From positions 2,416,380 to 2,480,379 of the forward strand of contig OX638318.1 of assembly GCA_951812585.1 (NCBI GenBank): DNA of 64,000 nt. Reading direction: 5' to 3'. Both the position numbers and the translations under genes were made by a program. Numbering within the stretch: the first letter of the stretch is position 1; each line of letters opens with the position of its first letter. The notes under the pieces were generated by a model. It made no database searches, was not told where the DNA came from, and saw only the letters and a list, made by a program, of their open reading frames with translations. This DNA is from Rhodothermales bacterium. GTDB taxonomy: Bacteria > Bacteroidota > Rhodothermia > Rhodothermales > Bin80. Below, piece after piece: positions 37,557-57,353 of this stretch.

Positions 37557-40500
37557 ATGAAAACGAAGATTTCGCTGGCACTCTGGTGCCTGTTCTTACT
37601 TCCCGGCCTTGCCTTGGCTCAGGGCACGACCATCTCTGGGAGTGTGGTCAACGAAGAAGGCGAGGCACTGATCGGTGCCAACGTCATCATTCATGGCCTG
37701 CTGCTGGGGGCGTCAACCGATGTTGACGGCAACTACTCTTTTCCGGTGCCGTCAGCCAACACGGGTGAGACGGTAGAGCTTTCCGTCAAGTACATCGGCT
37801 ATAGCCCGCAGGTGGTGACCATTACACTGGCCGAAGGGCTTATGACTCAGGACTTTGTGATGAGCCTGGACAGGCTCAACCTTGACGAAGTTGTGGTCAC
37901 GGGCGTATCCGAAGAAACGCCCCGCAAGAAGCTGGCCTTCACCGTTTCGGAAGTCGGCCAGGATGAGCTGACGATAGCGGCGGGCGCGAGCCCAATTGCC
38001 AACCTGCAGGGCAAGGTGGCCGGAGTGCAGGTGCAGGCGGCCAGCGGCGGGCCGGGCGATGCCATCTCGGTGCGGCTGCGGGGCTCCACCAGCCTGACTG
38101 GGGGCAGCGCGCCGCTTTACATTGTCGATGGCGTCGTGCTGGGCGCAAACCAGGTGGACATCGATGCGCTGGACATCGAGAATATGGAGATCGTCAAAGG
38201 GGCCGCAGCGTCTTCATTCTACGGCTCGCGTGCACACAACGGCGTCATCAACATCACGACGCAGCGGGGAAGCAACATTCCGCTTAATCAAACGCGCGTG
38301 GTGGTCCGCAACGAGTACGGCGTCAACAACCTCAGCAAGAACCTGGTCACGAACCGGTCACACAACTATGCGACAGACGCGGCTGGCAATTTTCTCAATG
38401 TAGACGGCGAAAAGAACGAATGCGCGACATGCCTGGCGAATGGCTACGGACCTGGAGCAGCACTGGCCAGAAACACCCATGGCGAGTCTTTCTACGACAC
38501 GCCATACCAGGGTGAGCTGTATGACGCCTTCTCAACGTTCTTTACGCCCGGAGATACCTACATCAACTATGTGGGCATCAGCCAGAACAGCACCAAAACC
38601 AACTTCCTGGCTTCGTTCACCAACACGGCAGAGCAGGGTGCCATCAAAGGGCTCCAAGGGCTTAACCGCAAGAGCTTCCGGGTAAACCTCGATCACAGGG
38701 TGCGCCAGAACCTGACCTTTTCGGCATCGGGTTTCTATGCGCAGTCCAGCAATGATGCGCTGAGATCGGATCTGGCGTCCGATGTGGCGGTAAATCCGTT
38801 CTTCGGGCTCATGTTTACGAATCCGCTGGTGAACCTGGAAGCGAGAAACGAAGCGGGTGAACTGATCGTTCAGGCCGATCCGCTCGCAGTCGAGGAGAAT
38901 CCCATTTACACCATCGAAAACGCAGACATTGCCCAGGAACGTTCGCGCATTCTGGGCAACTTCCGGGTGCAATTCAGCCCGCTTTCGTGGATGGATATTC
39001 AGAGCAACTTCGCCTATGATCGCTCTGACCGGGATGAAAAGGAATTCTATGACATCGGCTTCGCCACCATTGATGCTTCCTCGCTGAACGACGGACGGGT
39101 TGAGCGGCGCAACGCCACCAGCGAGGCCCTTAATGCGGATGCAACAATCTCGGCGCGCAAGACGTTCGGCCCATTCACAACGCGCGGACAGTTCAAGGCG
39201 CAGGTTGAGGACTTCCAGGCATTCACTGAGTTTGTCATCGGCACCGACCTGACCACGAAAGGTATCTCTGACCTCTCCAACGTTGAGACAGAAGGCGAGA
39301 AGCTCATCGGCAACGGTGCAAGCACCGTGCGGTCGGAAGGCTACTACGCAACGTTCGGAGCGGATTACATGGATCGCTATATCGTAGACCTTTTCGGGCG
39401 TCGAGACGGAAGCTCACTCTTTGGGGCAGAAGAGCGCTGGCAGACTTACTACCGCGCCAGCGGCGCATGGCGGATCTCAGAGGAGGACTTCTGGAGCGTC
39501 GACAATCCGATCACTGAACTCAAACTGCGCAGCTCTATCGGCACAGCAGGCGGACGTCCAAGATTCGAGGCGCAGTATGAGACGCTGACACTCAACAACG
39601 GTCAGCTCAGCAAGTCGACGCTGGGCAACAGATTCCTGAAGCCGGAATTGCAGACCGAGATTGAGGTCGGGATGGATATCGGTATTCAAAACCGCATATT
39701 CCTGGAGCTCGTCTACGCGCAAACCACGGTGAAAGACCAACTCCTGCAAGTGCCGCGAGCCGGCTACTACGGCTTTGGATCGCAGTGGCAAAATGCTGGC
39801 GATCTGGCCACAAATACCATCGAAGCAACGGTGTCCGGCGCGCTTATTGATCGTTCGGACCTGTTCATGGATTTCAGTCTGACCTTTGATCGTACCCGTC
39901 AGGAGATCACCGCCTTCCACTCGAATCCGTATCTGGGCGGCCCGCTCGGGCTTTTCTTCATCCGGGACAATGAGCGGCTGGGTACCATGTACGGCAATCT
40001 CTTCATCACCGATACGTCGCAGCTGCCGACAGGAACCGATGCGAGTTACTTTGATCTGAACGATGACGGCTATCTGGTCCCCGTAGGACAGGGTAATTCC
40101 TATACCAGTGGCACCGGTGCCGATGGCATGGTGGGCACTGACGACGATCTGTGGGGCACGCTGGTCGACGTAGACGGGACCAGTTACCGTTGGGGCATTC
40201 CGATCAAGTACTACGATGAAGCAGAGGAAACGGCCATCGTGGAGATCGCCAATGCAGTGCCGAACTTCAGCCTGGGCCTGAACACCACCATGAGTTACAA
40301 GGGCATCAGCGTTTACATGCTGTGGGGCGCGCAGGTCGGCGGCGATGTGTACAACTTCACCAAGCAGTGGAGCTACCGCGATGGCCGCGCCTCGGATCAG
40401 GATCAGGGCGGCAAGGCCGAGGGCGACAAGAAGTCGATCACCTATTACGAGGTGCTCTACGATGCCACGGCGCGCAACAGCCACTTCGTTGAGGATGCCA

Positions 40501-40757
40501 CATACATCAAGCTTCGGGAGTTGTCGGTCGGGTACACGTTCAATCGTCGGCAGCTGCAGCGCGTGTTCGGCAATTCGCTCCACTCGATCGGCATCAGCCT
40601 GATCGGCCGCAATCTGCTGACGTTTGCTGATTACACGGGCTTCGATCCTGAGGTGGGCAGCACGGCTGAATTCGGCGACGCCACGCTCGGTCGCGTGGAC
40701 AACTTCAATTACCCGTCGTATCGCACGTATCGCGCAAAGCTGGAAATCCAGTTTTAG
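37557..40757 (+). CDS. susC: SusC/RagA-family TonB-linked outer-membrane transporter
   Basis: About 1066 residues. A signal peptide ends GLALAQ. A carboxypeptidase-regulatory domain (about 22-110; ISGSVVNEEGEALIGANVI) is followed by the SusC-type plug, with the family signatures RLRGSTSLTGGSAPLYIVDGVV, EIVKGAAASSFYGSRA and NGVINITT. The barrel ends in LEIQF. SusC forms a pedal-bin importer with the lipoprotein SusD encoded 42 bp downstream. ATG 37557 was chosen because the 41 codons before it do not form a leader. The substrate is not shown by the sequence. The symbol is a family label, not an orthologue claim. Confidence 0.95.
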   Translation: MKTKISLALWCLFLLPGLALAQGTTISGSVVNEEGEALIGANVIIHGLLLGASTDVDGNYSFPVPSANTGETVELSVKYIGYSPQVVTITLAEGLMTQDFVMSLDRLNLDEVVVTGVSEETPRKKLAFTVSEVGQDELTIAAGASPIANLQGKVAGVQVQAASGGPGDAISVRLRGSTSLTGGSAPLYIVDGVVLGANQVDIDALDIENMEIVKGAAASSFYGSRAHNGVINITTQRGSNIPLNQTRVVVRNEYGVNNLSKNLVTNRSHNYATDAAGNFLNVDGEKNECATCLANGYGPGAALARNTHGESFYDTPYQGELYDAFSTFFTPGDTYINYVGISQNSTKTNFLASFTNTAEQGAIKGLQGLNRKSFRVNLDHRVRQNLTFSASGFYAQSSNDALRSDLASDVAVNPFFGLMFTNPLVNLEARNEAGELIVQADPLAVEENPIYTIENADIAQERSRILGNFRVQFSPLSWMDIQSNFAYDRSDRDEKEFYDIGFATIDASSLNDGRVERRNATSEALNADATISARKTFGPFTTRGQFKAQVEDFQAFTEFVIGTDLTTKGISDLSNVETEGEKLIGNGASTVRSEGYYATFGADYMDRYIVDLFGRRDGSSLFGAEERWQTYYRASGAWRISEEDFWSVDNPITELKLRSSIGTAGGRPRFEAQYETLTLNNGQLSKSTLGNRFLKPELQTEIEVGMDIGIQNRIFLELVYAQTTVKDQLLQVPRAGYYGFGSQWQNAGDLATNTIEATVSGALIDRSDLFMDFSLTFDRTRQEITAFHSNPYLGGPLGLFFIRDNERLGTMYGNLFITDTSQLPTGTDASYFDLNDDGYLVPVGQGNSYTSGTGADGMVGTDDDLWGTLVDVDGTSYRWGIPIKYYDEAEETAIVEIANAVPNFSLGLNTTMSYKGISVYMLWGAQVGGDVYNFTKQWSYRDGRASDQDQGGKAEGDKKSITYYEVLYDATARNSHFVEDATYIKLRELSVGYTFNRRQLQRVFGNSLHSIGISLIGRNLLTFADYTGFDPEVGSTAEFGDATLGRVDNFNYPSYRTYRAKLEIQF

Positions 40758-40799
40758 CACGCCAGTCCATCAATACCCTAAACGCACACGGTGCTTATC

Positions 40800-42413
40800 A
40801 TGAAACAATCGATTTTGTCCGGGCTAGCGTGCTTACTACTGTTAGCGGGCTGCCAGGACCTTGCTGTTGAAAACCCCAACAATCCCGATCGCGCGGTTGC
40901 CTTTCAGCAGCCAGGCGACGTAGTCAACCTGATCAGCGGGACCTTCCAGGACTATTGGCTGGGCATTCAGAACTGCAGCCGCGGGGCGATGTTCTACTCC
41001 ACCATAGCCGACGAGAACTCTTCCTCATGGGCCAACTGGGGCATGCGCGACATGTCTTCAGAGCCGCGTATCGCGTGGGACAACAGCCCCACCTACAACC
41101 GTCGGGGCTCCACGCAGAATCCGTGGTTTGATGCGTACCGCGGCATTTCCAATGCCAACGATGCGCTCCAGGCAATCGCACGCGCAGAAGAAGAGGGGAG
41201 TGTGGACAACAATACCTTTACCCGGGATGGATACGACACCAATCTGCTGAAGGCCTTTGCGAAGATGCATCAGGGCCTGATGCACGGGACGCTAGCGCTG
41301 ATATTCGACCAGGCGTTCATCGTAGACGAAACCATTGATTTGGCTGAGGCGCAGCTGGATCTGCAGCCCTACGGTGAAGTAGCCACGCAGGCAATTCGCG
41401 TGCTGGACGAGGCCGCGGCCATTGCTTCGGCCAACAGCTTTACGATAAGCGCATCGGACGACTGGATCTGGGGACTCGATGTGGACAATCAGCGGATGGT
41501 TCGGCTGATCAACTCGTTCGTCGCCCGCATTATGGTGCAGAGTGCGCGGAGTCCCGAAGAGCGCGCCGCGGTGAACTGGCAGGAGGTGATAAACCGCGTC
41601 AACCAAGGCATTACCGAGGACTTTTCGCCGATCGGAGATGACGACGGCAACACGGAGTGGGATTGCCTGAAGTTCTATGGCCAGAACGGGACCACCTGGA
41701 GTCGCGCCGACTATCGGACGATCGGCCCCGCCGACGAGTCGGGGGGCTACGCGGCGTGGCTGGCCGCTCCGCTTATTGATCGCGTCGTATTCGACATTGA
41801 AACGGCGGATCGCCGGATCGTCGGGGATCCAGATGATGTGACCGTGGATGGCTCAGACTTTCAATACCAGGGCAACAATGGCCCCTTTCCGGCCGCACGC
41901 GGCACCTACCACTACTCGTCGCACAACCACAAGCGTTACCAGTACTACAATACCGGCAACGGGAACGGAGCCATGCCGCACATGATCATGACAGAGATGG
42001 ACATGTACAGGGCGGAAGCGCTGCTGCGGACCGGCGGCAGCACGGACGAGGTGGCCACGCTGCTCAACAAGACGCGTGTAACGCGTGGACAGCTGAACCC
42101 TGCCATGGGCAGCGATCCCAGGGGAAGCTCCACGGATGCACAGAGTCATCTGGATTCGGCCAGCCTCTGGGCCAAGCTGAAGCATGAGCGGCGCATTGAG
42201 ACGTTCCAGACCGCCGCTGGTCTGGCCTACTATGACGACCGCGGCCTGGGCGATCTGGTTCCAGGTACGCCAATTCACTTCCCCGTGCCCGGCCGGGAAC
42301 TCGAAACCCTGGGTCTGCCGAACTACACCTTCGGCGGCGTAGGCGGGACGGGCGGCGCGCCCACGGCTTATCGGGATGGAGGAGCCATAGACCTTAACCG
42401 AATTCGCCGCTAG
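40800..42413 (+). CDS. susD: SusD/RagB-family surface lipoprotein
   Basis: About 537 residues. A type II signal with lipobox LLAGC (Cys at residue 18) is followed by the helical TPR-like SusD fold: NPWFDAYRGISNANDALQAI, LLKAFAKMHQGLMHGTLALIFDQAF, MIMTEMDMYRAEALLRTGG and LKHERRIETFQTAAGLAYYDDRGLG. SusD caps the SusC barrel and captures the ligand. The start is ATG 40800, since GTG 40791 would add only three residues. A strong hairpin follows the stop and separates the SusCD pair from the next genes. Confidence 0.92.
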   Translation: MKQSILSGLACLLLLAGCQDLAVENPNNPDRAVAFQQPGDVVNLISGTFQDYWLGIQNCSRGAMFYSTIADENSSSWANWGMRDMSSEPRIAWDNSPTYNRRGSTQNPWFDAYRGISNANDALQAIARAEEEGSVDNNTFTRDGYDTNLLKAFAKMHQGLMHGTLALIFDQAFIVDETIDLAEAQLDLQPYGEVATQAIRVLDEAAAIASANSFTISASDDWIWGLDVDNQRMVRLINSFVARIMVQSARSPEERAAVNWQEVINRVNQGITEDFSPIGDDDGNTEWDCLKFYGQNGTTWSRADYRTIGPADESGGYAAWLAAPLIDRVVFDIETADRRIVGDPDDVTVDGSDFQYQGNNGPFPAARGTYHYSSHNHKRYQYYNTGNGNGAMPHMIMTEMDMYRAEALLRTGGSTDEVATLLNKTRVTRGQLNPAMGSDPRGSSTDAQSHLDSASLWAKLKHERRIETFQTAAGLAYYDDRGLGDLVPGTPIHFPVPGRELETLGLPNYTFGGVGGTGGAPTAYRDGGAIDLNRIRR

Positions 42414-42433
42414 GCCTTAGCGGCAGGCAATAA

Positions 42434-42478
42434 GCGGGCAGGAGGCCAGCGCACCCCGCGCTGGCCTCCGCAGCCCGC
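42434..42478 (+). terminator. Strong hairpin between susD and the next gene
   Basis: A perfect 12-bp stem, GGAGGCCAGCGC (42441-42452) with GCGCTGGCCTCC (42458-42469) around ACCCC, is extended by GCGGGC/GCCCGC (42434-42439 and 42473-42478) across a small internal loop. No T-tract follows. It lies 20 bp after susD and ends 12 bp before the next ATG. It may be an attenuator or an mRNA-stabilising structure that sets SusCD levels apart from the downstream genes. Confidence 0.6.
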
Positions 42479-42490: not shown

Positions 42491-42994
42491 ATGCGTACTA
42501 TACCGAGTCTTTTTGTCGTCTTGGTGCTCATCCTGACTGGCTGCTCTGGATCGGGTGCGAGCGCCGACGATGCGCCGCGGGTCCGCAACACGGTCAGAGC
42601 GACGCTCGGCACGACTACGGCGGATCACGTCATCCGAGCGACCGAGGATATACTCACCATCCGCAACAGGTATCAGTTTGAACGGCGCATCGAGACCGCG
42701 GAAGATATTCGCCTGCTAACCTCGTGGTTGGAAGTTCCTGCCGCGGATGACGAGAAGGCGCTCGGATACGGGTTTGTGCGCATACGGATTACGGTAAGCG
42801 CCCGGCCGCGCGACAGAACAGCGGGAACGTATGCGGCCACACTCAACGCCGAGATCGAGGGCCGTGCCCCTACCGGTGACATCTGGACAAAGATTCCCGT
42901 AACCGACGGTAGAAACGCCTATCTGAAGGAGATCACCGACTTTCTGGAGAACGAATTCAAGGGTGGCGTGCGACCTGGGAGGGCGAACGACTAG
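42491..42994 (+). CDS. Small lipoprotein of unknown function
   Basis: 167 residues. A clear lipoprotein signal MRTIPSLFVVLVLILTGC puts the acylated Cys at residue 18. The mature part is a mixed alpha/beta segment with charged strands (GYGFVRIRITVSARPRD, ATLNAEIEGRAPTG) and a C-terminal helix KEITDFLENEF. I do not recognise the family. It sits between SusD and the FG-GAP lipoproteins, flanked by hairpins on both sides, so it could be transcribed with either part or separately. A small surface-layer accessory is possible but unproven. Confidence 0.75.
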   Translation: MRTIPSLFVVLVLILTGCSGSGASADDAPRVRNTVRATLGTTTADHVIRATEDILTIRNRYQFERRIETAEDIRLLTSWLEVPAADDEKALGYGFVRIRITVSARPRDRTAGTYAATLNAEIEGRAPTGDIWTKIPVTDGRNAYLKEITDFLENEFKGGVRPGRAND

Positions 42995-43307: not shown

Positions 43308-46300
43308 GTGCGCAGTGAGCTGGAGCGAAGCGGATGGCTGTGGATCTTGGGTCTTTGTCTGGTTTTGGCTGCGTGTTCTACGCGCTACGAACGCGTCTGG
43401 CAGGAAAAGGAAGATTACCGTGTCGCTCCCCTCGCTGCGCCTGTCGGTAGAACGGAGGGGTTCACCGCGGTCAAAGCGCGCGCGACCGGCATCGACTTTG
43501 CCAATGCGCTGGCTAGAGAATCGTGGCTTGGCAACCGGCACCTCGTCAACGGGTCGGGGGTCGCCCTGGGTGATGTGAACGGGGACGATCTGCCCGACAT
43601 CTTCCTTGCCAGGCTGGAAGGCCCCAATGCCCTGTACTTCAACCTTGGCGCGTGGCGCTTTGAAGAAGCAGCCGGCAAGGCGGGCGTGGCTGCGCCGGAT
43701 GCGGCGAACACAGGGGTCCTGATGGCGGACCTGGATGGGGATCTGGACCTGGACCTGGTGCTGACTTCCATGGGCGGCGGCACCGCCGCATTCGCCAATA
43801 ACGGCACTGGCCTTTTCGACGAGGTCACGCAGGCCGCGGGCCTGACTCAGGTGGGCGGTGCCACATCGATGGCGCTAGCCGATGTGGACGGCGACAGGGA
43901 CCTGGACCTGTATGTGGGATACTACAAGACCCGAACTGTCAAGGACTTGTATCCGCCTGCGCAGTTGGATTTCGAGCGCGTGGTGTGGCAGCAGGGCGAC
44001 ACGTTCAGCATCGTCCCTCAGTTTGAGGAGCACTACACGCTGAAGCGGCAGCACAACCGGCTGATGCGACTGGAAATCGCCGAGCCAGACCGCTTTTACC
44101 AGAATGATGGTGCGGGGGTGTTCAGTCCGATAGCCTTTACAGGCGGAGCGTTTGCGGAGGCGGACGGGCGCCTGCTCAGGGCGGCGCCGCGAGACTGGAC
44201 GCTTTCAGTCCGGCTGCAGGACCTCAACGGGGATGGCATTCCGGATCTGTATGTGTGCAACGACTTTGAGAGTCCAGACCACTTTTGGCTTGGCGATGGC
44301 GAAGGAGGGTTTCGGGCAGCGGCCGGTGTATCTGTGCGCAAGTCGAGTCAATCGACGATGTCGGTGGCCGCAGGCGACGTCAACGCAGACGGATTCACCG
44401 ACCTGTTTCTGGCCGACATGCTGAGCCGTCAGTATCAGCGGCGCCAGCGGCAATACCAGGTTATTCCGCCGGAGGTGGCCCAGGCTGGGGATATTGATAC
44501 GCGTCCGCAGGTTATGCAAAACGTACTGCTTATGGGGCGCGGCGATGGCACCTTTGCCGAGGTAGCCCACCTTGCCGGCGTGGCTGCATCCGAGTGGACA
44601 TGGAGCAGCCTCTTCATGGATGTGGACCTTGATGGATATGAAGACCTGCTGCTTACCACTGGGCACGCCTATGACGCACTAGATGGTGACGCCCAGATGC
44701 GGACGGGCATGCCCGGCGCCGACTGGCGTCGTCACCTGCTGGCTTTTCCGGACCTCAACCTGCACAACCTGGCTTTCCGCAACCGCGGAGATGGGACCTT
44801 CATGCTCATGCCTGATGGCTGGGGCTTGGGCGTGTTGCCGGATGTATCCCACGGCTTAGCCTTCGCGGACATGGATCAGGATGGCGACCTGGATGCGGTC
44901 GTTAATCGGCTCAATGCATCCGCGGGCGTCTTCCTGAACGGCGCGACCGCTTCCCGCATCGCCGTACGGCTGAAAGGAACGGCTCCCAATACGCAGGGGG
45001 TCGGGGCGCTAATTCGCGTAAGCGGTGATGGGCTTCCGCCGAGGCAGAAGGAGGTGCTGGCCGGTGGCTTGTATCTCTCGTCCAGCGAGGCGCTCTGCAC
45101 CTTTGCGGCGTTGGACGGGGCTGCTATTGAAGTGCGCTGGCGGAGCGGCCTGCGCAGCGTGATTCGCAATGCGCGGACCAATCATCTCTACGAAGTCTTT
45201 GAAAGCCATGCGTCGTCGGACACCTCGGCTAAGCCAGCACCGGCAGTCCCGCTCATGAAAGCGTTGCGCCTGGATCATTCGCATCAGGAGTCTTACTACG
45301 AGGATTTTGCCCGGCAACCGCTGCTTCCGCGTCGCCTCAGCCAGCGCGGTCCCGCGATAGCGCTTGCCGACATCGATGCCGACGGGGATGACGAGATCAT
45401 CGTCGGAAACGGTCGGGGCGGGCGCCTGACGGTGCTGGAGAATCATGCGGGCGTCTTCGCGGGTCCGCAGCCGCTGGGACCGCAGGCCAGCGGAGATCAT
45501 GCGGGCCTTGTGGTGACGCCGGGCGGTGCGATCCTGGTGGGCGTCTCCAACTACGAACGAACACCCGATACGGCGAGCGACCCCTCCTTACTCCTGCGTG
45601 CAGACAGCCGAGGAGCGATCCACCAGACAGTCATGGGTCAGGACACGCCCGGACCGCTGGTCCTGGCGGACTTTAATGGCGATCAGCGTCTGGACGTTTT
45701 TGTGGGTGGCCATTTTGTGCCGGGGCTTTATCCAGCGGCGGCATCCAGCCGTGTCTACCAGATGGAAGGCAGCCAGCTTACGTATGATGCTGCCATGAGC
45801 AAGCCGTTTGCGGGGGTCGGCCTGGTCAGCGGTGCGGCCGCGGCGGACCTGGACCTTGATGGCGACCTGGACCTGGCCTTAGCGATGGACTGGGGACCGC
45901 TGCGCGTATTCGTAAACGACGGGCGGGGGGTCTTCGAAGACCGGACCCGCGCGCTGGGGCTCTCGTCCAGTACGGGATGGTGGAACGGTGTGGCCTTCGG
46001 CGACTTTGACAGCGATGGACGCTTGGATCTGGTGGGGACGAACTGGGGACGCAATACGATGTACGGGCAATCGGCGCAGCCGCTACTGGCGTATTACGGC
46101 GATCTGGATCGCAACGGCATCATGGATGTTTTGGAAGCGCGATACGACCCGTCGCTGCAGGACTATGGCATGGTGCGTGACCTGCGGGCGTTGTCCAGTG
46201 CTGTGCCGCCACTTTTCGGGCGCCTGCGCTCTTACCGCGCGTTTTCTGAGACGAGCACAGCCGCGCTGCTCGGGGAACGCTTGAGCACGGCTTCCAAAGT

Positions 46301-46940: not shown

Positions 46941-49900
46941 GACCGGCGCGCTTTGGATCGGTTTGGCCGGACTCTGTCTTCTGGGGGGCTGCAGCAGCCC
47001 GGCAGGTGCGTGGCAGGAGGAAGTCGGCTACCGCTGGCGCATTCTTGCGTCACCTAGAGGCGGTCCAGCAGGCTTTCGGCCTTTGTCGCCCGCGCGAACC
47101 GGAGTCGGTGCGGTGAACAACGTTTCAGCGGAGCAGATCGTTGCCAACAGGCATTTCATGCACGGATCGGGCATCGCCATAGGCGATATAGATGGAGACG
47201 ACCGGCCGGATGTGTACGTGGCGCGTCTGCACCAGTCCAATGTGCTGTATCGTAATCAGGGCAATTTGCGTTTTGCTGACATCACCGAGGCCTCGGGCGT
47301 AGCACTGGAAGGGTACCATTCTACGGGCGCGGCGCTGGTTGATCTGGACGGAGATGGCGACTTGGACCTGTTGGTAACGATGCTTTATGGCCCGGGTGCC
47401 GTGATGCTGAATGACGGGAAGGGACGCTTCAGCGATTTTACGTCGGAATCCGGGCTGGCCTCGTCCCTGGCGAGTACGACGATGACGCTGGCGGATGTGG
47501 ACGGCGACAGGGACCTGGACATATACATAGCCCGATACAAGCGCATCGCATTGAAAGACAGCCTGCCTTCCGAAGCCATCACCTGGGAAGCGGTGATGCA
47601 GGATACCACCTACGCGGTCAAGGCGCCGTTTGCCGACCACTACCGGTTCAGTGTGAACGGCACGAGGATTATGCGAACGGAACTGGCAGAGCCTGACGGG
47701 CTGTACCTCAACGACGGCACCGGCAGGTTTGCACTCGTGTCGTGGACCGGCGGCGTCTTCACGGGTGCAGACGGCACGCCGCTGAACGCGGCCCCCAAGG
47801 ATTGGGCTCTCACTGCGCGCTTCTACGACATTAACGGCGACGGGCATCCCGACCTGTATGTCTGCAACGACTTTGAAGGCCAGGATGCGCTCTGGCTCGG
47901 CGATGGGCAGGGCAATTTCCGGCTTGCGGGGGCTGACGTGCTTCGCAGCTTCAGCAACGCTACTATGTCAGTGGATTTCGCGGACATTGATCGGGACGGG
48001 CATGTGGATATGTTCATGACTGACATGCTTAGCCAGGACCATGCTCGTCGGCAGCGACAGCGCAACACGCGCATACCGATACCTATCCCTATCGGAGACT
48101 TGGACAGCCGTCCACAAGAAATGCAGAACACGCTGTTTGTCAGTCGCGGGGACGGGACATTCGCACAGATTGCGCATATGGCCGGCGTGGCGGCCTCAGA
48201 CTGGTCGTGGTCTACGAGTTTTGTGGATGTTGATCTGGACGGATTCGAGGATCTTTTGATTACTACGGGGCATGCGTTTGATATACAGGATCTGGATGCA
48301 CAGGGGCTTGAGCAGCAGCGCTTAAGCCGTGTCCAAGGGCGCTACGCTTCTCGCGCATTGCTCTTGGGCTTTCCTCCGCTCCGCCTGCCGAACGTGGCCT
48401 TTCGTAATCGTGGTGATCGTACATTCGAATCAGTTTCTGATGGATGGGGGCTGGGAAGAGGTGCGGATGTGTCCCACGGGATGGCGCTGGGCGACCTGGA
48501 CCTGGATGGGGACCTGGATGTGGTGATCAACCGGCTCAATGAGACGGTCGGCCTCTACGAGAATGTCGCTGCCGCGCCACGCCTCGCCGTGCAGCTTAGC
48601 GGTCCCCCGGGTAATTCGCACGGCGTGGGTGCCACCATCAGCGTCGATTGTCCGGGCCTGCCATCGCAAACAAAGGAGATCACTGCCGGCGGACAGTATG
48701 TGTCCGCAAGTCAGATGATGGCGGTTTTTGCGGCTTCTCTTGAACTGTGCCGGATCAGCGTAACCTGGCAGGATCGAACAAAGACTACGGTGCCCGGCGC
48801 TCTGGCCGGGCGGCTTTACGAGGTCGCGTATCCGCACGCGGCAACAGATCAGCCAGTGCCTGCTGGACCGCCCGTGCCAGTGGAAGCCCCGGCGCCCGCA
48901 AAACAGCCAGCGACCATGGACAGGCACGGGGTCACGTACCCGGGCGCAAAGGTGCGGAGCGCTTTGCCAAACGGCCCCTATGCATGGGCTCAGTCGCTTT
49001 TGTCGCACCATGAGATGCCCTACGACGACTTTGCGCGGCAGCCACTCCTGCCCCATCGCCTTAGCCAGCGCGGACCTGGCTTGGCACTCGCCGATCTTGA
49101 CGGGGATGGGGACGACGACATGCTGCTGGGCAGCGGCATGGGCAGGGGACTGACGACCTACTACAATGAGGGCGGCCTGCTGCGTCCGGGGGCCGCCGCG
49201 GCAAGCGCGACGGGAGACCTGACGGGAATCATTGTCGTGCCTGGCCGCAGTTCGCGCGTGCAGGTTATGGCGGGCGTCTCCAATTACGAGCGTACACCGC
49301 AGACGGCGGGTGACGATTCGTACATACAGGTCTTCGAGATTGCACCCTCGGGTCCACCGGTGTTAGTGCAGCGCTTGCCCTTCGGTGAAGAGGCCATAGG
49401 GCCCTTGGCTGCGGCTGATGTGGATGGCGATAGCGACCTGGACCTCTTTGCGGGCGGAAGCTTTGTGCCGGGCGCCTTTCCGGCGGCAGCCAGCAGCAGG
49501 ATCTATCGCAACACCGAGGGGACCTATGTGCGCGATGCAGATCTGAGCGTATCGTTTGAACGCATAGGCCTGGTGTCGGGTGCGGCTTTCGGCGATCTTG
49601 ATGCAGATGGCGACGCGGACCTGGTCCTGGCACTGCAGTGGGGATCGCTGAAGGTGATGATGAACGAAGCAGGGACGTTCGTTGATCAGACGGATGCGCT
49701 GGGACTGGCTGGTTACGCGGGCCGCTGGAACGGCGTGGCGCTGGGCGACTTTGATGAAGATGGTCATCTTGATATTGCGGCGACCAACTGGGGCTGGAAC
49801 ACCCGCTACGGTAGTCGTGAGAATATTCGCCTGTACTATGGCGATGTGGATGCGAACGGCATACTGGATATCTTTGAGGCATTCCAAGAGCCGACCATCG

Positions 49901-50691
49901 GTGCCTATGCACCGTCGCGGCAATTAGGGGACCTGGCGCAAGGCGTGCCCTCTCTTCTGCGCCGCTACAGCTCTCATGCCGCCTTTGCATCCTCATCGAT
50001 TGCGGAGATGTTGGCCGATGCATGGCACGAGCTGACCTTCGTGCAGGCTTCATGGCTGGGATCGACCATCTTTTTGAACCGCCAAACCCACTTCGAGTCG
50101 CGCCTGTTGCCGCAGGAAGCCCAGCATACCGTGGCTTCCGGTGTGGCTGTACTCGATGCTAATGCGGATGGGCACTTGGACCTGGTGCTGAGCCAGAACT
50201 ACTTCGCCCTGTCGCTGACCACGCCGCGCCAGGATGCGGGGCGTGGTTTGTGGCTTGCCGGCCGGGGCGATGGCAGCTTTGCAGTTTACGTCCGGGCGGG
50301 CTTTACAGCCTATGGAGAGGGGCGGGCGGTGGCTGCCGCAGACTTTGACCAGGACGGTCGCAGCGATGTGCTCATCGCACAAAACGGAGCGCCGCCACAC
50401 TACTATGTCAATCAGGCGGCGCAGGCCGGGCTGCGCGTTCGGCTGACGGGCCCTGCAGCGAACCCCTGGGCTATCGGTACCGTGGTGCGCGCAGTGCGCC
50501 ATGATGGCACCTCCGGGCCTGCGAATCTGGTGTCGGCCGGTTCGGGGTACTGGTCTCAGGATTCGCGCATCGTAGTGCTGGGCGGCCTTGATGCTATAGC
50601 CGCCGTGCATGTGCAGTGGCCGGGCGGCCTGGAGTCTGTCGTGCCCGTTCGCCGCGGCGCAAGGGAAGTGCGCGCAACCTATCCAGATTGA
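46927..50691 (+). CDS. Giant FG-GAP/ASPIC-UnbV surface lipoprotein, copy 2
   Basis: About 1254 residues and clearly paralogous to the previous gene along its whole length, with the same propeller loops, the same DFARQPLLPHRLSQRGP block and the same C-terminal GSGYWSQDS ... VQWPGGLESVVPV. A lipoprotein leader ends LCLLGGC. The start at 46927 (or ATG 46930) overlaps the preceding stop, so translation is coupled. It differs by a Pro/Ala-rich linker near 640-675 (AGPPVPVEAPAPAKQPA) that is absent from copy 1. Tandem duplication followed by divergence is the simplest origin. Confidence 0.87.
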   Translation: MMGHRTGALWIGLAGLCLLGGCSSPAGAWQEEVGYRWRILASPRGGPAGFRPLSPARTGVGAVNNVSAEQIVANRHFMHGSGIAIGDIDGDDRPDVYVARLHQSNVLYRNQGNLRFADITEASGVALEGYHSTGAALVDLDGDGDLDLLVTMLYGPGAVMLNDGKGRFSDFTSESGLASSLASTTMTLADVDGDRDLDIYIARYKRIALKDSLPSEAITWEAVMQDTTYAVKAPFADHYRFSVNGTRIMRTELAEPDGLYLNDGTGRFALVSWTGGVFTGADGTPLNAAPKDWALTARFYDINGDGHPDLYVCNDFEGQDALWLGDGQGNFRLAGADVLRSFSNATMSVDFADIDRDGHVDMFMTDMLSQDHARRQRQRNTRIPIPIPIGDLDSRPQEMQNTLFVSRGDGTFAQIAHMAGVAASDWSWSTSFVDVDLDGFEDLLITTGHAFDIQDLDAQGLEQQRLSRVQGRYASRALLLGFPPLRLPNVAFRNRGDRTFESVSDGWGLGRGADVSHGMALGDLDLDGDLDVVINRLNETVGLYENVAAAPRLAVQLSGPPGNSHGVGATISVDCPGLPSQTKEITAGGQYVSASQMMAVFAASLELCRISVTWQDRTKTTVPGALAGRLYEVAYPHAATDQPVPAGPPVPVEAPAPAKQPATMDRHGVTYPGAKVRSALPNGPYAWAQSLLSHHEMPYDDFARQPLLPHRLSQRGPGLALADLDGDGDDDMLLGSGMGRGLTTYYNEGGLLRPGAAAASATGDLTGIIVVPGRSSRVQVMAGVSNYERTPQTAGDDSYIQVFEIAPSGPPVLVQRLPFGEEAIGPLAAADVDGDSDLDLFAGGSFVPGAFPAAASSRIYRNTEGTYVRDADLSVSFERIGLVSGAAFGDLDADGDADLVLALQWGSLKVMMNEAGTFVDQTDALGLAGYAGRWNGVALGDFDEDGHLDIAATNWGWNTRYGSRENIRLYYGDVDANGILDIFEAFQEPTIGAYAPSRQLGDLAQGVPSLLRRYSSHAAFASSSIAEMLADAWHELTFVQASWLGSTIFLNRQTHFESRLLPQEAQHTVASGVAVLDANADGHLDLVLSQNYFALSLTTPRQDAGRGLWLAGRGDGSFAVYVRAGFTAYGEGRAVAAADFDQDGRSDVLIAQNGAPPHYYVNQAAQAGLRVRLTGPAANPWAIGTVVRAVRHDGTSGPANLVSAGSGYWSQDSRIVVLGGLDAIAAVHVQWPGGLESVVPVRRGAREVRATYPD

Positions 50692-50699
50692 CATCGGCC

Positions 50700-52811
50700 A
50701 TGCGTAGTGCTGTTGCCATAGCGGCCATAACGCTGTGCGTGCTCGGATGCGGCGCGAAGCGCGGGACATCGGAGATGGCGGCGGTGCTGGACGCGATAGC
50801 CGCAGAAACCGACGCGTACCCGCGCAGCAATGCCCATGCCAACCGGGCGCGCGTGCGGGCTCTCCGTGCGGTAGCGCCGCCAACGGATCCCATGCAGGCG
50901 GTCACGTATGCGAGTACGCTCGGACAGGAACTGCTGCGGGCAGGGGAAAGTGAAGCAGCGATAGCACAATTTGAATCTATTCTGGACCAGGTGGATGCGT
51001 TGCCATCGGTGTTCGACGCGGCGCACCGCCTGGGCATTCTGGATCATCTTGCACTGAGCTATCTCCGGCTTGGAGAACAGGAAAACTGCATCGCAAACCA
51101 CAACAGCGCGCGGTGCCTTTTGCCGATCACTTCGGATGGCGTTCATGCCCTTCGGCGCGGTTCCACTGCTGCCGCAGGGCTCTATGGCGCAATACTGCAG
51201 GAATCGCCGGAAGATCTGAACAGCTTGTGGCTGCTGAACCTGGCGATCATGACGCTGGGCACGTACCCTGACAGTGTTCCGGAGGCTTGGCGTGTTCCGC
51301 CAGCGGCGCTCATGGCAGAGGACGATATCGGGCGCTTTGTTGACATCGCCAAGCTTGTCGGGGTAGATGTGAGGGGGCTTTCGGGCGGCGCTGTCATGGA
51401 CGATCTCAATGGCGATGGGCACCTCGACATCATGGCTTCCTCGTGGGGGCTGCGCGATCCTTTGCGACTGTTCATAGGCACGGGCACGGGTACGTTCGAG
51501 GATCGCAGCCACGCGGCTGGTCTGGACGGACTGGTGGGCGGTCTGAACCTGATCCATGCGGACTACGACAACGACGACGATGTGGATGTTTTCGTGTTGC
51601 GGGGCGCGTGGCTTGCAGAAGGGCACCCCAACTCGCTGCTGCGCAACCGCGGTGACGGCACCTTTGATGATGTCACCATGGAGGCGGGGCTCTACAGCCT
51701 CCATCCGACACAAACCGCCACCTGGGCGGATTTCGACAATGATGGCTACTTGGATCTCTTCGTCGGCAACGAGTCCAATGTGCACGCGGGCCGACACCGG
51801 TGCGAGTATTTTCGTAACAATGGTGATGGCACCTTCGAAGAAGTGTCCGACGCCATGGGCCTGTCGGTGGTGGGCTATGTCAAGGCCGTGGTGAGCGGAG
51901 ACTATGACAACGATGGCTGGCTGGATCTGTACGTGTCCCGCTATGGAGAGCCCAACCTTTTGCTGCGCAATCTGGGCGGGGCGGGTTTTGAAGAGGTAGG
52001 GTCCAATGCAGGGGTGCGGGAGCCGCTGGACAGTTTTCCGGCTTGGTTCTGGGACTACAACAATGATGGCTGGCTGGACCTGTTTGTGTCGGGGTGGCGT
52101 GCTACGGCCGGCGATGTTGCGGCCGAATACCTTGGACGCCCGGGCCGCGATGAGCGGCCGCGTCTGTATCGAAATAATGGCGACGGAACTTTCACCGATG
52201 TGGCCCAGGATATGAGCCTCGACCATGTGATGTATTCCATGGGAAGCAACTTTGGGGACCTTGACAATGATGGATGGTTGGATTTCTATGTGGGCACGGG
52301 AGATCCGAATCTGCGTGCGCTGATGCCCAACCGGATGTTTCGCAGCGATGGCGGCCGTCGATTTCTGGAGGTCACGGCCTCAGGGGGCTTTGGCCATCTG
52401 CAAAAGGGGCACGGCGTCGCCATTGGCGACCTGGATCATGACGGAGACCAGGACATCTATGCCGTCATGGGCGGAGCTTTTGAAGGGGATGAGGCCATGA
52501 ACGTCCTCTTTGAGAACCCCGGCCACGGCAACGACTGGATTACTTTGGAGCTTGTGGGCACCATTTCCAACAGGAGTGCCATCGGTGCGCGTATTCGAGT
52601 CGATGTGATTACGGGCGATGGGACACGGTCCCTGCATCGCGTGGTGAGCTCTGGGGGCAGCTTCGGCGCTTCCAGCCTTAGGCAAGAGATCGGACTTGGC
52701 ACAGCGCATGCAATAGAGACCATCGAGGTGTACTGGCCGGCTTCCGGCTCGACACAGCGCTTGCACGGCGTGCCCAAAGGTCAGGAAATCCGCATCACTG
52801 AAGGAACCTGA
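50700..52811 (+). CDS. CRTAC1-type FG-GAP lipoprotein with N-terminal TPR-like region
   Basis: About 703 residues. A lipoprotein signal (AIAAITLCVLGC) is followed by a helical TPR-like region (about 35-200; LGQELLRAGESEAAIAQFESIL and ENCIANHNSARCLLPI). Next come FG-GAP propeller repeats with Ca loops (DLNGDGHLDIM, DYDNDDDVDVF, DFDNDGYLDLF, DYDNDGWLDLY). An ASPIC/UnbV domain closes the protein (IGARIRVDVITGDGTRSLHRVVSSGGSFG ... IEVYWPASGS). This is the usual order in bacterial CRTAC1-family proteins. It starts 8 bp after copy 2 and abuts the receptor gene. Confidence 0.9.
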   Translation: MRSAVAIAAITLCVLGCGAKRGTSEMAAVLDAIAAETDAYPRSNAHANRARVRALRAVAPPTDPMQAVTYASTLGQELLRAGESEAAIAQFESILDQVDALPSVFDAAHRLGILDHLALSYLRLGEQENCIANHNSARCLLPITSDGVHALRRGSTAAAGLYGAILQESPEDLNSLWLLNLAIMTLGTYPDSVPEAWRVPPAALMAEDDIGRFVDIAKLVGVDVRGLSGGAVMDDLNGDGHLDIMASSWGLRDPLRLFIGTGTGTFEDRSHAAGLDGLVGGLNLIHADYDNDDDVDVFVLRGAWLAEGHPNSLLRNRGDGTFDDVTMEAGLYSLHPTQTATWADFDNDGYLDLFVGNESNVHAGRHRCEYFRNNGDGTFEEVSDAMGLSVVGYVKAVVSGDYDNDGWLDLYVSRYGEPNLLLRNLGGAGFEEVGSNAGVREPLDSFPAWFWDYNNDGWLDLFVSGWRATAGDVAAEYLGRPGRDERPRLYRNNGDGTFTDVAQDMSLDHVMYSMGSNFGDLDNDGWLDFYVGTGDPNLRALMPNRMFRSDGGRRFLEVTASGGFGHLQKGHGVAIGDLDHDGDQDIYAVMGGAFEGDEAMNVLFENPGHGNDWITLELVGTISNRSAIGARIRVDVITGDGTRSLHRVVSSGGSFGASSLRQEIGLGTAHAIETIEVYWPASGSTQRLHGVPKGQEIRITEGT

Positions 52812-55472
52812 GTGTTGTACATGGTGCGTTGGGGCTTGCTGTCTGCCTTGCTGCTTTGCGTCGGTGCTGCCGGCGCACAGGCCCAGCCGTGGGTGGTGGA
52901 AGGCAGGGTGCATGATGCGGCGACGCGCAGCCCTCTGCACGGTGCTTCGGTAACGCTGGAGCAGCATGCGGCGCTAGTTGCCGGTGCTGCTACCGACAAT
53001 CTGGGCCATTACGTTATCAGAGCGCCAGCGGCGGGGGCCTACCGCTTGATTGCGCGCCATGTGGGCTACACAACACTTGCGCTGGACATAGAGATCTCGG
53101 GCGACACGCTGACGCTGGATATTGCGCTGGAGCTTACGACGGTGGGCTTGGAGGAAGTGGAGGTTAGCGCCGGACCCTTTCAGCCTCCTTCGGACGTGAG
53201 TGTCGCGATCACCAGGGTATCTGCCCGGACGATTGAAGGGCTGGCAGGTACAGGGGAAGACGTATTTCAGGCGCTTCGACTGTTCCCAGGTGTGCAGACT
53301 ACGGGCGACTACTCGACGCAGTTGTATATCCGTGGTGGCACGCCGGATCAGAATCTCATACTGATCGATGATATCGAGGTATTCAGTCCCTTCCAGCTAA
53401 GCGGCATGGGTAGCCTGCTTAATCCAGCGCTTGTGCGCAGTGTGGAGCTCTATGCGGGCACCATGCCTGCCGCCTATGGCGACCGGCTGTCGTCCGCCTT
53501 GGTGGTGGCTACGCGGGATGGCCGTTCTGATGGCGGCCTGCATGGTCGTTTCAACTCCACCATGATGACCGTCAATGCCACGCTGGAAGGTGCATCCGGC
53601 TTCTGGAACGGCAGTTGGATTGTGAGCGGACGCAAGACCTATTTTGGTTCGTTTGCAAACACCTTCGCGCAGCGCCTGGGCATCTTTAACGAGATTGCCT
53701 TCCCCAACTTTGCGGACGGACACTTCAAGCTCGTACTGCGTCCGTCTGTGCATCATGTTGTTCGGGCTACAGTCCTTGCGAGTCGAGACCAGTTGGATTG
53801 GGTCGTTGACGAGGATGCGGTGGCCGTGCAGGGTGGCTCAGAAAGTCTGTACAGGGGCGGCAAGGACATTGCTCATACGGCGGTCGGTCTGCAGTGGAGC
53901 TACGTGCCAGATCCAGGGATGAGCGCGCTCATTTACGCCAACTGGTACGAGAACAGCGGGGGCAGCATCCTTGGCGGCGATCTTCAGGCTTGGATGGCCG
54001 GACTGAAGAATTTCGACAGCCCGTTTGGTCCGCCCGATCCCGTGTTTCCAAGCGATGCAGCGGCACGGTTTACACAGTCCGAGCGCTACGCCGTACATAA
54101 GCTGTCCGTTGGTACTCGGGTGGCGCTGGTGCGCCGCGCCCATTCCATCGAAGCGGGCATGGGGATGGACCATCTCTTTACTGATCTCACGCTTGATTTT
54201 GCAGCCAACGAGTTTGGACGCACGCTTTTTGATGCCATCCAGCGAGCGGATCCGCTGTTCAGGTCGTTAGGGAGCAGCGCCCGCACGGATCGCGTGGACG
54301 GGCGCGCGCACTTCTATGGTCAGGACAAGATTGCCTTTCGGAGATTTTTTGTGCAACCCGCGTTGCGCTTTGACTATTACTCGCTGGCCAGGCGTGGATA
54401 CTGGACGCCCAGGCTCAGCCTATCTGTACCGCTTACGGTGCGCACGACGGTGCGCCTGGCGGGCGGCCGGTATGTCCAGAGTCCGGGCCTGGAGAAGGCG
54501 CTGGACCCAGACGACAACTACAACACGGCGCGGCTTGAGAGCTTGGCGGGGCTGGCCGCGGAGGAGGCACGGCATGTGGGCGTAAGTCTTGCTCACCGCG
54601 TCAAACGCCGGTGGCGCACGCGGATTCAGGTGTATCAGAAGTGGTACAGCGCACTGCTCGTCCCAGCCTATGCGGTGCAGCCCCGAGCGGTGGCGACTTA
54701 TTTCCCTATCGGGTCTACGGAATTGGGCAGAGTGAGCGTGCTAACGCCGAGCGCTTGGGTGATCGACTACCAGGAGGTGCCGGTGCTTTTGCCCGACCTC
54801 GAGAACACAGGCACGGGCAAGAGTTTCGGAGCGGAGGTGATCCTTGCGCGAGAACGCTTGCGCGCCGGTGATCGGCTCCGCGGCTGGCTTTCGTACGCCT
54901 TGGCCAAGGCTTCACGCGAAGCACGGTACGGGAGCGGTGCCTCGGCGCATCCCTTCGCGTATGATCGCAGGCACACGGTGAATGTCGTGATGGAATGGCA
55001 GATGTTCACTTCGCTCGTGGCCAGTGTGACATGGCGTTACGGATCTGGCTTTCCGTACACGCCAGCGGTGGACATGCGTGCGCTGGTAGCCTTGGTCGAA
55101 GATCCCAACGCGCCGGACGTAACGCAGGAGGTTGTGCTCGTGGATCCGGCGACGGGTTACGCCAGGCTTGTCCCTGGTTATGGGGGGCCGGACAACCTGT
55201 ACGTGGGCCGGTTACCTGCGTACCACAGGCTTGACGTGCGGCTGACCTACCAGGCGCGTTGGCAAGGACTTACGGTACGTGTCTATGCCGATGCCATCAA
55301 TGCCTACCACCGCAAGAACACGATCACCAACAAGTACTTCGTGGGCACGGATGCAGGCGACTATGCCCACTTGCCGGAGGCGCTGAGGCCTCCGCCAACG
55401 GCGACGCTATATCGGGAACCCATCTACGGTTTCCCCTTTATTCCAAGCTTTGGTTTGAGCTTAGCGTTCTAG
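52812..55472 (+). CDS. TonB-dependent receptor with carboxypeptidase-regulatory domain
   Basis: About 886 residues. GTG 52812 directly follows the preceding TGA; ATG 52821 is an alternative. A signal peptide ends GAQAQ. A regulatory sandwich (about 20-105; VEGRVHDAATRSPLHGASVTLE) is followed by a plug (about 115-230; LYIRGGTPDQNLILIDDIEVFSPFQLSG and TMPAAYGDRLSSALVV) and a barrel ending GLSLAF. It belongs to the receptor group with the PDQNLILID plug and no SusD partner. The tight packing suggests it works with the FG-GAP lipoproteins encoded just upstream. Confidence 0.92.
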   Translation: MLYMVRWGLLSALLLCVGAAGAQAQPWVVEGRVHDAATRSPLHGASVTLEQHAALVAGAATDNLGHYVIRAPAAGAYRLIARHVGYTTLALDIEISGDTLTLDIALELTTVGLEEVEVSAGPFQPPSDVSVAITRVSARTIEGLAGTGEDVFQALRLFPGVQTTGDYSTQLYIRGGTPDQNLILIDDIEVFSPFQLSGMGSLLNPALVRSVELYAGTMPAAYGDRLSSALVVATRDGRSDGGLHGRFNSTMMTVNATLEGASGFWNGSWIVSGRKTYFGSFANTFAQRLGIFNEIAFPNFADGHFKLVLRPSVHHVVRATVLASRDQLDWVVDEDAVAVQGGSESLYRGGKDIAHTAVGLQWSYVPDPGMSALIYANWYENSGGSILGGDLQAWMAGLKNFDSPFGPPDPVFPSDAAARFTQSERYAVHKLSVGTRVALVRRAHSIEAGMGMDHLFTDLTLDFAANEFGRTLFDAIQRADPLFRSLGSSARTDRVDGRAHFYGQDKIAFRRFFVQPALRFDYYSLARRGYWTPRLSLSVPLTVRTTVRLAGGRYVQSPGLEKALDPDDNYNTARLESLAGLAAEEARHVGVSLAHRVKRRWRTRIQVYQKWYSALLVPAYAVQPRAVATYFPIGSTELGRVSVLTPSAWVIDYQEVPVLLPDLENTGTGKSFGAEVILARERLRAGDRLRGWLSYALAKASREARYGSGASAHPFAYDRRHTVNVVMEWQMFTSLVASVTWRYGSGFPYTPAVDMRALVALVEDPNAPDVTQEVVLVDPATGYARLVPGYGGPDNLYVGRLPAYHRLDVRLTYQARWQGLTVRVYADAINAYHRKNTITNKYFVGTDAGDYAHLPEALRPPPTATLYREPIYGFPFIPSFGLSLAF

Positions 55473-55487
55473 CAAATCGCCCCGTCC

Positions 55488-57353
55488 ATGTCTGCTGCTG
55501 GCACCAGGCCTTTTGCCTACGCAGTCGCACCGCTTGGCGTACGACTGATGGTAGGCTTTGCTCTGACCGGCTGCGCTGTGATGCCCTGTGCCGGTCAGGA
55601 GGCTGATCATACGCTAGACGCGCTTGTGGCAGCGACGGAGCAGTATATCAACCTGATCAGCAATATTGGGAGCGGTCTTGCACTGGCTGATACGAGCGCC
55701 GTTCGCAGGCACATGGCGCAGTTGGCATTGCTATTGCCCGACGAAGTAAAGGAGCAGGTAACTGGCGGAGATCTTGATCGTATGTCCGAGGCCGCGTTAT
55801 ACAGGCCCGGCGCGGGCGCCATCCTGGCGCAGTGGTGGAGCCGTCAGGATCCGCTGCCAGCCTCGCCTGTGAATGAACGGCTGTTGGAGCATGTCCAGCG
55901 GGTACAGTATGCGGAAGCGCACTTCGCCAGCGCGAACAGGCCGACCGGACTGGATGACAGGGGCGAGGTGTATATTCGCTACGGGCGCCCGGAGCGGGAG
56001 CTGACCGTGCGATTTGATGAGCCCGAATTCACGGACAAGCTCTACAAGTTTGGCATGGTTCTGAACCAGTCGAACTTTCCGGACAACGTGTTTTGGCGCT
56101 ACGGGCATATAGATGGCACCGCGCAATTTCTCTTTCTGGAGGAGAACGGAGAATACCGTATTGCGGGCACGACGGAACTTCTTCCCCGGGCACTGCGGGC
56201 TGGCTTCACGCCGCAGATACGCGGCCAGCGGCGCGCTGAGATGGCGCTGGCGGCCATGCGCACGATCTATCGGCAGCTTGCCGCTGAGGACCCCGTCTTT
56301 TTGGAGCGCTACAGCGAAGTAGACAATTACCTTGCAGATCATGAGGCGCCCGGTCGCGTGGCTGCCCGCGTCTTGGGCGAGTCCTTTCGGAGGATCGTGC
56401 TGGATCAGGATGACGACACGGAGCTGCAGCCGGGAGGTAGTGAGCGTCCAGCCAGCGAAGTGGTCCAGAGCGTCATTACGTCATCCAAGGTCAAAGATGA
56501 TCTGATGGCCTATCAGCGCGACCTGTTGATGCCGGCGACATACACTGAGGTGCACCGAACGTTGCCGCCATTGCCGGTTGCGGTCCGGCCTGCCCGTTTT
56601 TTGGATACGGATGGATCGACGCGAACGGAGCTGTATTGGAGCACCGAGCCGGGCGCCCTGCGCAAGAAGGACCTTGACGAAGACTACGTACTGCAGGTAA
56701 CCGCAGTGCAGATGGATTCTTCCTATATGCGGCGTAGCGTGACGAACCGATTGATTCAGGTCACTGGCTTGCCCCGGGGGCGCGATGCTGTAATCCCGCC
56801 GCAGATGGACATCGTGCGCGGTGATACTGCGGCCTACCATGTGGCGCTTCAGTGGGATTTACATCGTGTGGTCAGGGATTCGCTGGGCCAGGCGGCACTC
56901 GGCAAACGACTTCGCGTCGGAGCCCGGTATGTGGATTCGCTCACGCCTCTCAACGGTAGCGGAACAGCGCTGGAAATGAGCGATCTCAAGCCCGTGATGA
57001 TTTGGTCCGCCGTAGAGATGGTTGGAGAATCGGAGCCTTACCCCTATCGACAGGTAGGGGCTGATGTGCCTCTTGGGTTATACTTCGAGATATACAACCT
57101 GCGCTATGATGAGGACGACTATACGCGTTACGGGGTGACGTATCGGATCGCCAGGCGCGCGGGCGGCGATTCCGAGCAAGCACCCACATCCGTGACCTCG
57201 ATCCATGTAGGTACACGTGCAATGCAGAATCAGGAAGTATTGCTTGATCTTACCGACTGGCAGCGTGCGGGCCCGGTTACGGTGCACGTCACCGTGTACG
57301 ACCAAACGGCGCAGCGAGGCGTGACGCGGTCAATAGATTTTGAGCTGTTCTAG
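55488..57353 (+). CDS. GWxTD-domain-type exported protein
   Basis: 621 residues. A hydrophobic leader with an export-type Cys (ALTGCAVMPCAG) suggests a secreted or lipid-anchored protein. The GWxTD domain is recognised at about 115-190 (WWSRQDPLPASPVNERLLEHVQRVQYAEAHF ... DRGEVYIRYGRPE). The naming motif itself is degenerate: the sequence reads TGLDDRG where GWxTDRG is usual. The C-terminal two thirds are beta-rich and unassigned, ending in ITRSIDFELF-like residues. It is the last large gene of the uptake operon, starting 15 bp after the receptor. The function of GWxTD proteins is not established. Confidence 0.8.
   Translation: MSAAGTRPFAYAVAPLGVRLMVGFALTGCAVMPCAGQEADHTLDALVAATEQYINLISNIGSGLALADTSAVRRHMAQLALLLPDEVKEQVTGGDLDRMSEAALYRPGAGAILAQWWSRQDPLPASPVNERLLEHVQRVQYAEAHFASANRPTGLDDRGEVYIRYGRPERELTVRFDEPEFTDKLYKFGMVLNQSNFPDNVFWRYGHIDGTAQFLFLEENGEYRIAGTTELLPRALRAGFTPQIRGQRRAEMALAAMRTIYRQLAAEDPVFLERYSEVDNYLADHEAPGRVAARVLGESFRRIVLDQDDDTELQPGGSERPASEVVQSVITSSKVKDDLMAYQRDLLMPATYTEVHRTLPPLPVAVRPARFLDTDGSTRTELYWSTEPGALRKKDLDEDYVLQVTAVQMDSSYMRRSVTNRLIQVTGLPRGRDAVIPPQMDIVRGDTAAYHVALQWDLHRVVRDSLGQAALGKRLRVGARYVDSLTPLNGSGTALEMSDLKPVMIWSAVEMVGESEPYPYRQVGADVPLGLYFEIYNLRYDEDDYTRYGVTYRIARRAGGDSEQAPTSVTSIHVGTRAMQNQEVLLDLTDWQRAGPVTVHVTVYDQTAQRGVTRSIDFELF

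Follow-up and report, generated by a model that had tools for sequence, protein, structure and literature searches.

What does a SusC-SusD transporter pair take up when the genes that follow it encode giant beta-propeller lipoproteins and a GWxTD-domain protein? The question is raised by a 64,000-nucleotide stretch of DNA (the window; contig OX638318.1, forward-strand positions 2,416,380 to 2,480,379) of a Rhodothermales bacterium (GCA_951812585.1; here G000), the genome of which is a 3.2-Mb single contig. Most of what is understood of SusCD importers comes from glycosidase-bearing loci of gut Bacteroides. We propose, with a probability of about 60%, that the block starting at position 37557 of the window encodes a TonB-powered SusCD importer of the pedal-bin type, the propeller lipoproteins capturing substrate at the cell surface and the GWxTD protein being its partner in the periplasm. 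The genes of the block, with positions within the window, are the following.

37557..40757, + strand: SusC, SusC/RagA-family TonB-dependent transporter (TIGR04056; nearest solved sequence RagA)
40800..42413, + strand: SusD, putative SusD-like lid lipoprotein (PF14322, AlphaFold2 model, lipobox LAGC)
42491..42994, + strand: smLP, small lipoprotein, conserved, of no known family (lipobox LTGC)
43308..46940, + strand: VCBS1, giant lipoprotein with two predicted FG-GAP/VCBS beta-propellers, each followed by UnbV/ASPIC (PF13517, PF07593, model)
46921..50691, + strand: VCBS2, giant paralogue of VCBS1 (PF13517, PF07593; first Met probably at 46927)
50700..52811, + strand: CRTAC, CRTAC1-type lipoprotein with a single propeller and UnbV (PF13517, PF07593, lipobox VLGC)
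52812..55472, + strand: TBDR2, second TonB-dependent receptor (Plug, CarboxypepD_reg)
55488..57353, + strand: long GWxTD-domain protein with a signal peptide, probably periplasmic (TIGR04514)
57353..57712, + strand: MGMT-like gene, alkyltransferase-like (6-O-methylguanine methyltransferase-like; PF01035, 89 bits)

The SusC-SusD pair and its propeller lipoproteins

SusC aligns with TIGR04056 from end to end (512.9 bits, cut-off 368.25, positions 2-981 of 981); it scores 44.8 bits with the SusC/RagA signature TIGR04057 (cut-off 46.2) and 41 bits with the B12 receptor model, far below the cut-off of the latter (599.7). The gene 42 bp downstream encodes a divergent member of PF14322 (26.4 bits, E 1e-5, cut-off 27) with the lipobox LAGC. 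Its AlphaFold2 model is of moderate confidence (pLDDT 59, pTM 0.69), and all 50 PDB matches listed by Foldseek are SusD-family or SusCD/utilisome structures (best E 5.7e-7), hence the product is, as modelled, a SusD-fold lipoprotein. A sequence-only reading of the window had named the genes from SusC to GWxTD, their order and their spacing; all of these hold, and the family matches are strong except that of SusD. The small lipoprotein smLP has no Pfam family above cut-off, and its orthologues are found at eight other loci. Profiles of SusD, GWxTD and smLP retrieved nothing useful in a sequence search of solved structures. SusD, smLP, VCBS1, VCBS2 and CRTAC each carry a lipobox.

VCBS1, VCBS2 and CRTAC all match PF13517 (FG-GAP_3, up to 241 bits) and PF07593 above cut-off, UnbV being present at two places in VCBS1, and CRTAC has an additional N-terminal region of about 200 residues. 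The AlphaFold2 model of VCBS1 (pLDDT 89, pTM 0.90) is a tandem of two propellers, which superposes on murine CRTAC1 (PDB code: 9etn) with a Z of 36.5 (rmsd 2.5, 454 residues) and on integrin propellers with a Z of about 26. According to this model VCBS1 consists of two propellers of the CRTAC1 fold. The two giants had been called paralogous, and they are indeed 48% identical in corresponding halves, over both halves, while the two halves within one chain are only about 25% alike. Three propellers had been counted; with two in each giant and one in CRTAC there are five.

A tree of the VCBS proteins resolves VCBS1 and VCBS2 of family f1, to which G000 belongs, as two clades, each fully supported, and groups the tandem pair of a second family (f5) with itself. 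Tandem doubling beside SusCD has thus taken place more than once, and a single origin of all tandem giants is rejected on this tree.

All nine genes lie on the + strand in the order listed. The intergenic gaps are 42 bp (SusC-SusD), 77 bp (SusD-smLP) and 313 bp (smLP-VCBS1), then VCBS1 and VCBS2 overlap by about 20 bp, the following gaps are 8 bp (VCBS2-CRTAC), 0 bp (CRTAC-TBDR2) and 15 bp (TBDR2-GWxTD), and the GWxTD and MGMT-like genes share 1 bp. From VCBS1 onward the block is one packed gene run, just as the claim of overlaps or gaps of at most 15 bp from 43308 on had it. The description of the locus as fused is right for the adjacency of the genes but not for the genes themselves, none of which is a fusion. 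A regulated import unit is likely, the block being a conserved unit that is packed from VCBS1 on and has the 313-bp gap (42995-43307) ahead of VCBS1. Co-transcription of the smLP side and the VCBS1 side across the gap, giving one transcript from SusC to GWxTD, is likely; in several sister genomes (for example L017, L026 and L028) VCBS1 immediately follows smLP. Promoter and terminator scans gave no more matches than shuffled sequences did, and scans of the studied DNA returned no Rfam matches or tRNAs. The Pfam scan detected no hydrolase family among the block genes, in agreement with the absence of hydrolases reported before.

The order SusC-SusD-smLP-VCBS1-VCBS2-CRTAC-GWxTD, with or without TBDR2 ahead of GWxTD, recurs across family f1 and, without TBDR2, occurs also in f5 (L032). 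Conservation beyond this genome had been set in advance as a check on the block, which passes it in both families. In three genomes (G006, G013 and G010; loci L026, L036 with L020, and L037 with L029) the block is split between VCBS1 and VCBS2, both halves being kept in the genome. Of the 16 genomes of f1 that were searched, this one counted, 14 have a SusD orthologue (E 1e-40 or better); across the order the distribution is patchy, with 29 of 114 genomes. Upstream, Band_7, MurB-C and cytochrome-c assembly genes flank the block in part of f1, and downstream EPSP synthase does so in f1 and f5. Conserved in both order and flanks, the block looks like part of the core genome that has been inherited vertically.

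Linkage of GWxTD and VCBS genes to SusC-SusD

The GWxTD protein is a long form (about 620 amino acids) that exceeds the TIGR04514 cut-off of 28 with 44.9 bits. The signal peptides of its orthologues end in motifs of the AHAQ/AFAQ type without a conserved cysteine, which suggests a soluble periplasmic protein; however, the copy in the window has an LTGC readable as a lipobox, and its soluble periplasmic placement is thus uncertain.

Long GWxTD genes follow SusC-SusD with no VCBS gene between them in families f3, f5, f8, f9, f12 and f14 and in the class-level family f16 (loci L142, L143, L179, L180, L181, L184, L186, L187, L189, L191 and L194-L196); the identity of SusD in these sets was checked separately. 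Another arrangement, seen at L190, L192 and L198 and, within G000, at L044, has a GWxTD/VCBS pair that is divergent from the SusC-SusD it faces. Counted over 14 genomes, which are related and were chosen for having a long GWxTD gene, so that the 26 genes are not independent events, a SusC gene is present within 6 kb in 17 of 26 cases (0.7 expected) and within 16 kb in 22 of 26 (1.6 expected). The families concerned number seven or more, and the gene order is not always the same. G000 itself has only three SusC genes above cut-off, two of which have both a long GWxTD gene and a VCBS gene in their vicinity. The positions given for this vicinity of SusC, long GWxTD and VCBS genes in G000 are G000:C1:2693940-2701836 and 1588689-1591619.

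The pairing of VCBS with SusCD reaches beyond the order. Named genomes were scanned by VCBS alignment alone, and those Bacteroidota loci were counted that had enough upstream DNA. Many Bacteroidota have relatives of about 1,100 residues; those of Verrucomicrobiota and of one Gemmatimonadota metagenome-assembled genome (MAG) are about 1,200 residues long. In 30 of 43 Bacteroidota loci SusC and then SusD are directly upstream of VCBS on the same strand, which agrees with the earlier statement that VCBS proteins neighbour SusCD in this phylum; as controls, a SusC on the opposite strand is upstream in 1/43 and a SusC is downstream in 2/36. In other phyla the scan found SusC-SusD upstream of VCBS in 0 of 14 loci. 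Pfam confirms SusD in 22 of 24 sampled SusD-position proteins, those of the window and of a Gemmatimonadota MAG (L049), in which SusC, SusD, VCBS and CRTAC are consecutive, included. CRTAC orthologues occur in Bacteroidota and Gemmatimonadota, and stand within SusCD-VCBS loci of Flavobacterium (L075) and a Bacteroides MAG (L079). Chance adjacency of GWxTD or VCBS with SusCD is rejected on these counts (17/26 against 0.7 expected; 30/43 against 1/43).

The open-licence literature searched, including one survey of polysaccharide utilisation loci (PULs), yielded no relevant paper linking VCBS, FG-GAP or UnbV with SusC/SusD, nor any mention or published function of the GWxTD domain. The partnership of GWxTD with SusCD and propellers appears undescribed, the component types themselves being known. 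Tentatively, and at somewhat less than even odds, GWxTD may be a previously unrecognised periplasmic part of a large SusCD class, and the block an ancestral machine of SusC, SusD and GWxTD that gained giant VCBS propellers. If so, this would be a type of importer whose own locus has no hydrolases dedicated to the substrate taken up.

Proposed mechanism and competing readings

SusC and SusD most likely work as a TonB-powered pedal-bin importer of the kind described in PMC7618045 and PMC7782687; BtuG, a propeller lid, demonstrates that such a fold is able to operate on a barrel of the TonB-dependent type (PMC10404256), and in utilisomes surface glycan-binding proteins are joined to SusCD (PMC7618045). 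By analogy the propeller lipoproteins are natural candidates for surface capture. The mechanism that we propose builds on the observed gene order, conservation, modelled folds and lipoboxes, and on the statistical association of both GWxTD and VCBS genes with SusCD. SusC would be the barrel and SusD its hinged lid, with TonB powering the import. VCBS1, VCBS2 and CRTAC would sit on the cell surface by N-terminal lipid anchors, stiffened by calcium loops, bind a large or multivalent substrate and pass it on to SusCD, with smLP as an additional outer-membrane accessory. GWxTD, probably exported without a lipid anchor, would most likely work in the periplasm, either receiving the substrate from SusC or docking beneath it, and cleavage would be left to enzymes encoded elsewhere. 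Surface exposure of the lipoproteins, complex formation, the capture role and the periplasmic role of GWxTD are what we infer.

Three points weigh against this proposal. Verrucomicrobiota giants with two propellers that are 40-47% identical to VCBS1 have no SusC found nearby (L047-L055); their role in that phylum must be a SusCD-independent one, and such proteins can hence function in the absence of SusCD. GWxTD is missing from most VCBS loci of Bacteroidota, which makes VCBS and GWxTD two independent additions to SusCD. Finally, enzymes and adhesins are also known among propellers of this class.

The nature of the substrate is where the nearest alternatives arise. The sequence-only reading went from the absence of a hydrolase to an already processed or unusual polymer, but this absence does not separate processed glycan from other candidates such as peptides or further oligomers, and oligopeptides fit equally. 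The locus might accordingly be a RagAB-like importer of oligopeptides, or of peptide-rich material, released by secreted proteases, its propellers holding protein or glycoprotein debris, which we consider unlikely though the best of the alternatives. No carbohydrate-active enzyme (CAZyme) is encoded in the block or its immediate surroundings, RagA is the closest solved relative of SusC by sequence (1.1e-52), and a subtilase with a type IX secretion system (T9SS) tail is encoded 16 kb upstream. However, resemblance to RagA does not decide what is imported, and further SusC homologues come close behind; the subtilase is outside the conserved block, and several Bacteroidota VCBS loci neighbour glycoside hydrolases (GH127, GH3, GH43 or GH1) or a fucosidase.

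These same neighbours would suit an ordinary PUL whose glycosidases are encoded elsewhere (for instance the T9SS-tailed amylase at 21278-24205), the more so as SusD-type lids mostly bind glycans. The SusCD pair of a PUL is present, but neither CAZymes nor a PUL-type regulator are found in the block or its immediate flanks, no flanking family besides housekeeping neighbours recurs widely in sister genomes, and the fixed chromosomal place and near-universal presence in f1 point to a core function. We regard this alternative as a little less probable than peptide import.

Neighbouring genes do not settle the substrate. In Bacteroidota they are mixed (PAP2/vanadium-haloperoxidase-like, GH127, GH3, GH43, GH1, fucosidase and multihaem cytochrome) and the Verrucomicrobiota loci share no theme among their neighbours, and substrate inference from neighbours was dropped. 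The genes after VCBS likewise vary (L072, L082, L094 and L105): PAP2/vanadium-haloperoxidase-like genes occur in six scanned neighbours, a multihaem cytochrome follows VCBS in L072 and GH1 does so in L105.

The propellers may alternatively be something other than capture proteins. If the giants were enzymes of the lyase or dehydratase type, the block would hold its own depolymerase; the C-terminal propeller of VCBS1 resembles aldos-2-ulose dehydratase (PDB code: 4a7k; Z 29.4, 345 residues, rmsd 3.1), and conserved residues exist outside the calcium loops. This is a fold-level comparison at 13% identity, however, and the non-enzymes integrin and LGI1 give similar Z values, the fold alone being uninformative; we regard the enzymatic role as improbable. 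Calcium-dependent adhesins for surface adhesion or matrix retention, with SusCD merely co-regulated, would be consistent with the integrin-like fold and with the Verrucomicrobiota homologues without SusC, but the strong, directional linkage to SusC-SusD over many families and the conserved gene order make them more improbable again. An outer-membrane biogenesis machine built of SusCD-like parts and not serving nutrient import, which the core-genome position and near-universal presence in f1 might favour, is very unlikely, given that the block holds no biogenesis gene and is patchy in the order (29/114 genomes).

Should the proposed surface-capture importer prove right, a conserved core-genome SusCD without glycosidases, equipped with giant double propellers and GWxTD, would widen the known uptake range and build of such systems, and the GWxTD domain would gain a testable role. 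As many Bacteroidota carry the SusCD-VCBS pairing, knowing what one member binds would inform many genomes.

Accessory genes and comparison with known systems

The sequence-only reading took both import barrels to be features of the system. TBDR2 is confined within the block to this genus (g1) and to g5; it is missing from G007, G009, G011, G012, G014 and G015, and in at least nine sister loci CRTAC is followed directly by GWxTD. We therefore reject the view that these barrels form a pair. Two genes had been passed over, the MGMT-like gene, which extends the tight run, and a further receptor:

34217..37192, + strand: TBDR0, upstream TonB-dependent receptor (CarbopepD_reg, Plug and barrel by Pfam; exact start uncertain)

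Ahead of SusC, TBDR0 is likewise confined to g1 and g5 (orthologues L018 and L146). The MGMT-like gene, an odd yet recurrent companion of the transport locus, directly follows GWxTD also in L021, L025, L029, L180, L186 and L189, which belong to several families; a number of f1 genomes share this order. Elsewhere in the window, three T9SS-tailed proteins are encoded in a row at 14080-24205 (one with a weak CBM20 match, the subtilase, and an alpha-amylase/CBM48 protein), and a TonB receptor, a 1275-residue protein without a Pfam family and a PorV/UPF0164-like protein at 6036-13809. A receptor with a related PorV-like gene is found near VCBS loci in two other genomes (L036, 12446-19437; L013, 1648-9888).

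The block shares with the Bacteroides utilisomes for levan and dextran (PMC7618045) the SusC barrel, the SusD lid and co-encoded extra lipoproteins. It differs in having no glycoside hydrolase or known surface glycan-binding family, carrying VCBS/UnbV giants, CRTAC and GWxTD instead, and its complex is a putative one. With the Porphyromonas oligopeptide importer RagAB, the RagA of which is the closest solved SusC, it has in common a SusC/SusD pair without CAZymes. RagAB is not known to include propeller or GWxTD partners. GWxTD-domain proteins are represented by TIGR04514, the cut-off of which the window protein exceeds, but this protein is of the long form linked to SusC-SusD. CRTAC1 and VCBS-UnbV proteins (9etn; VCBS superfamily, PMC8023676) share the FG-GAP repeats, calcium loops and UnbV, whereas the giants have two propellers per chain and are bacterial lipoproteins linked to SusCD. 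The Bacteroides BtuB-BtuG system (PMC10404256) likewise has a surface beta-propeller lipoprotein working with a TonB-dependent transporter. BtuG, however, is the capture lid itself, a single seven-bladed propeller and the sole lid of a BtuB barrel, while the block pairs a SusC/RagA barrel with a separate, predicted SusD lid, to which its far larger propellers are extra.

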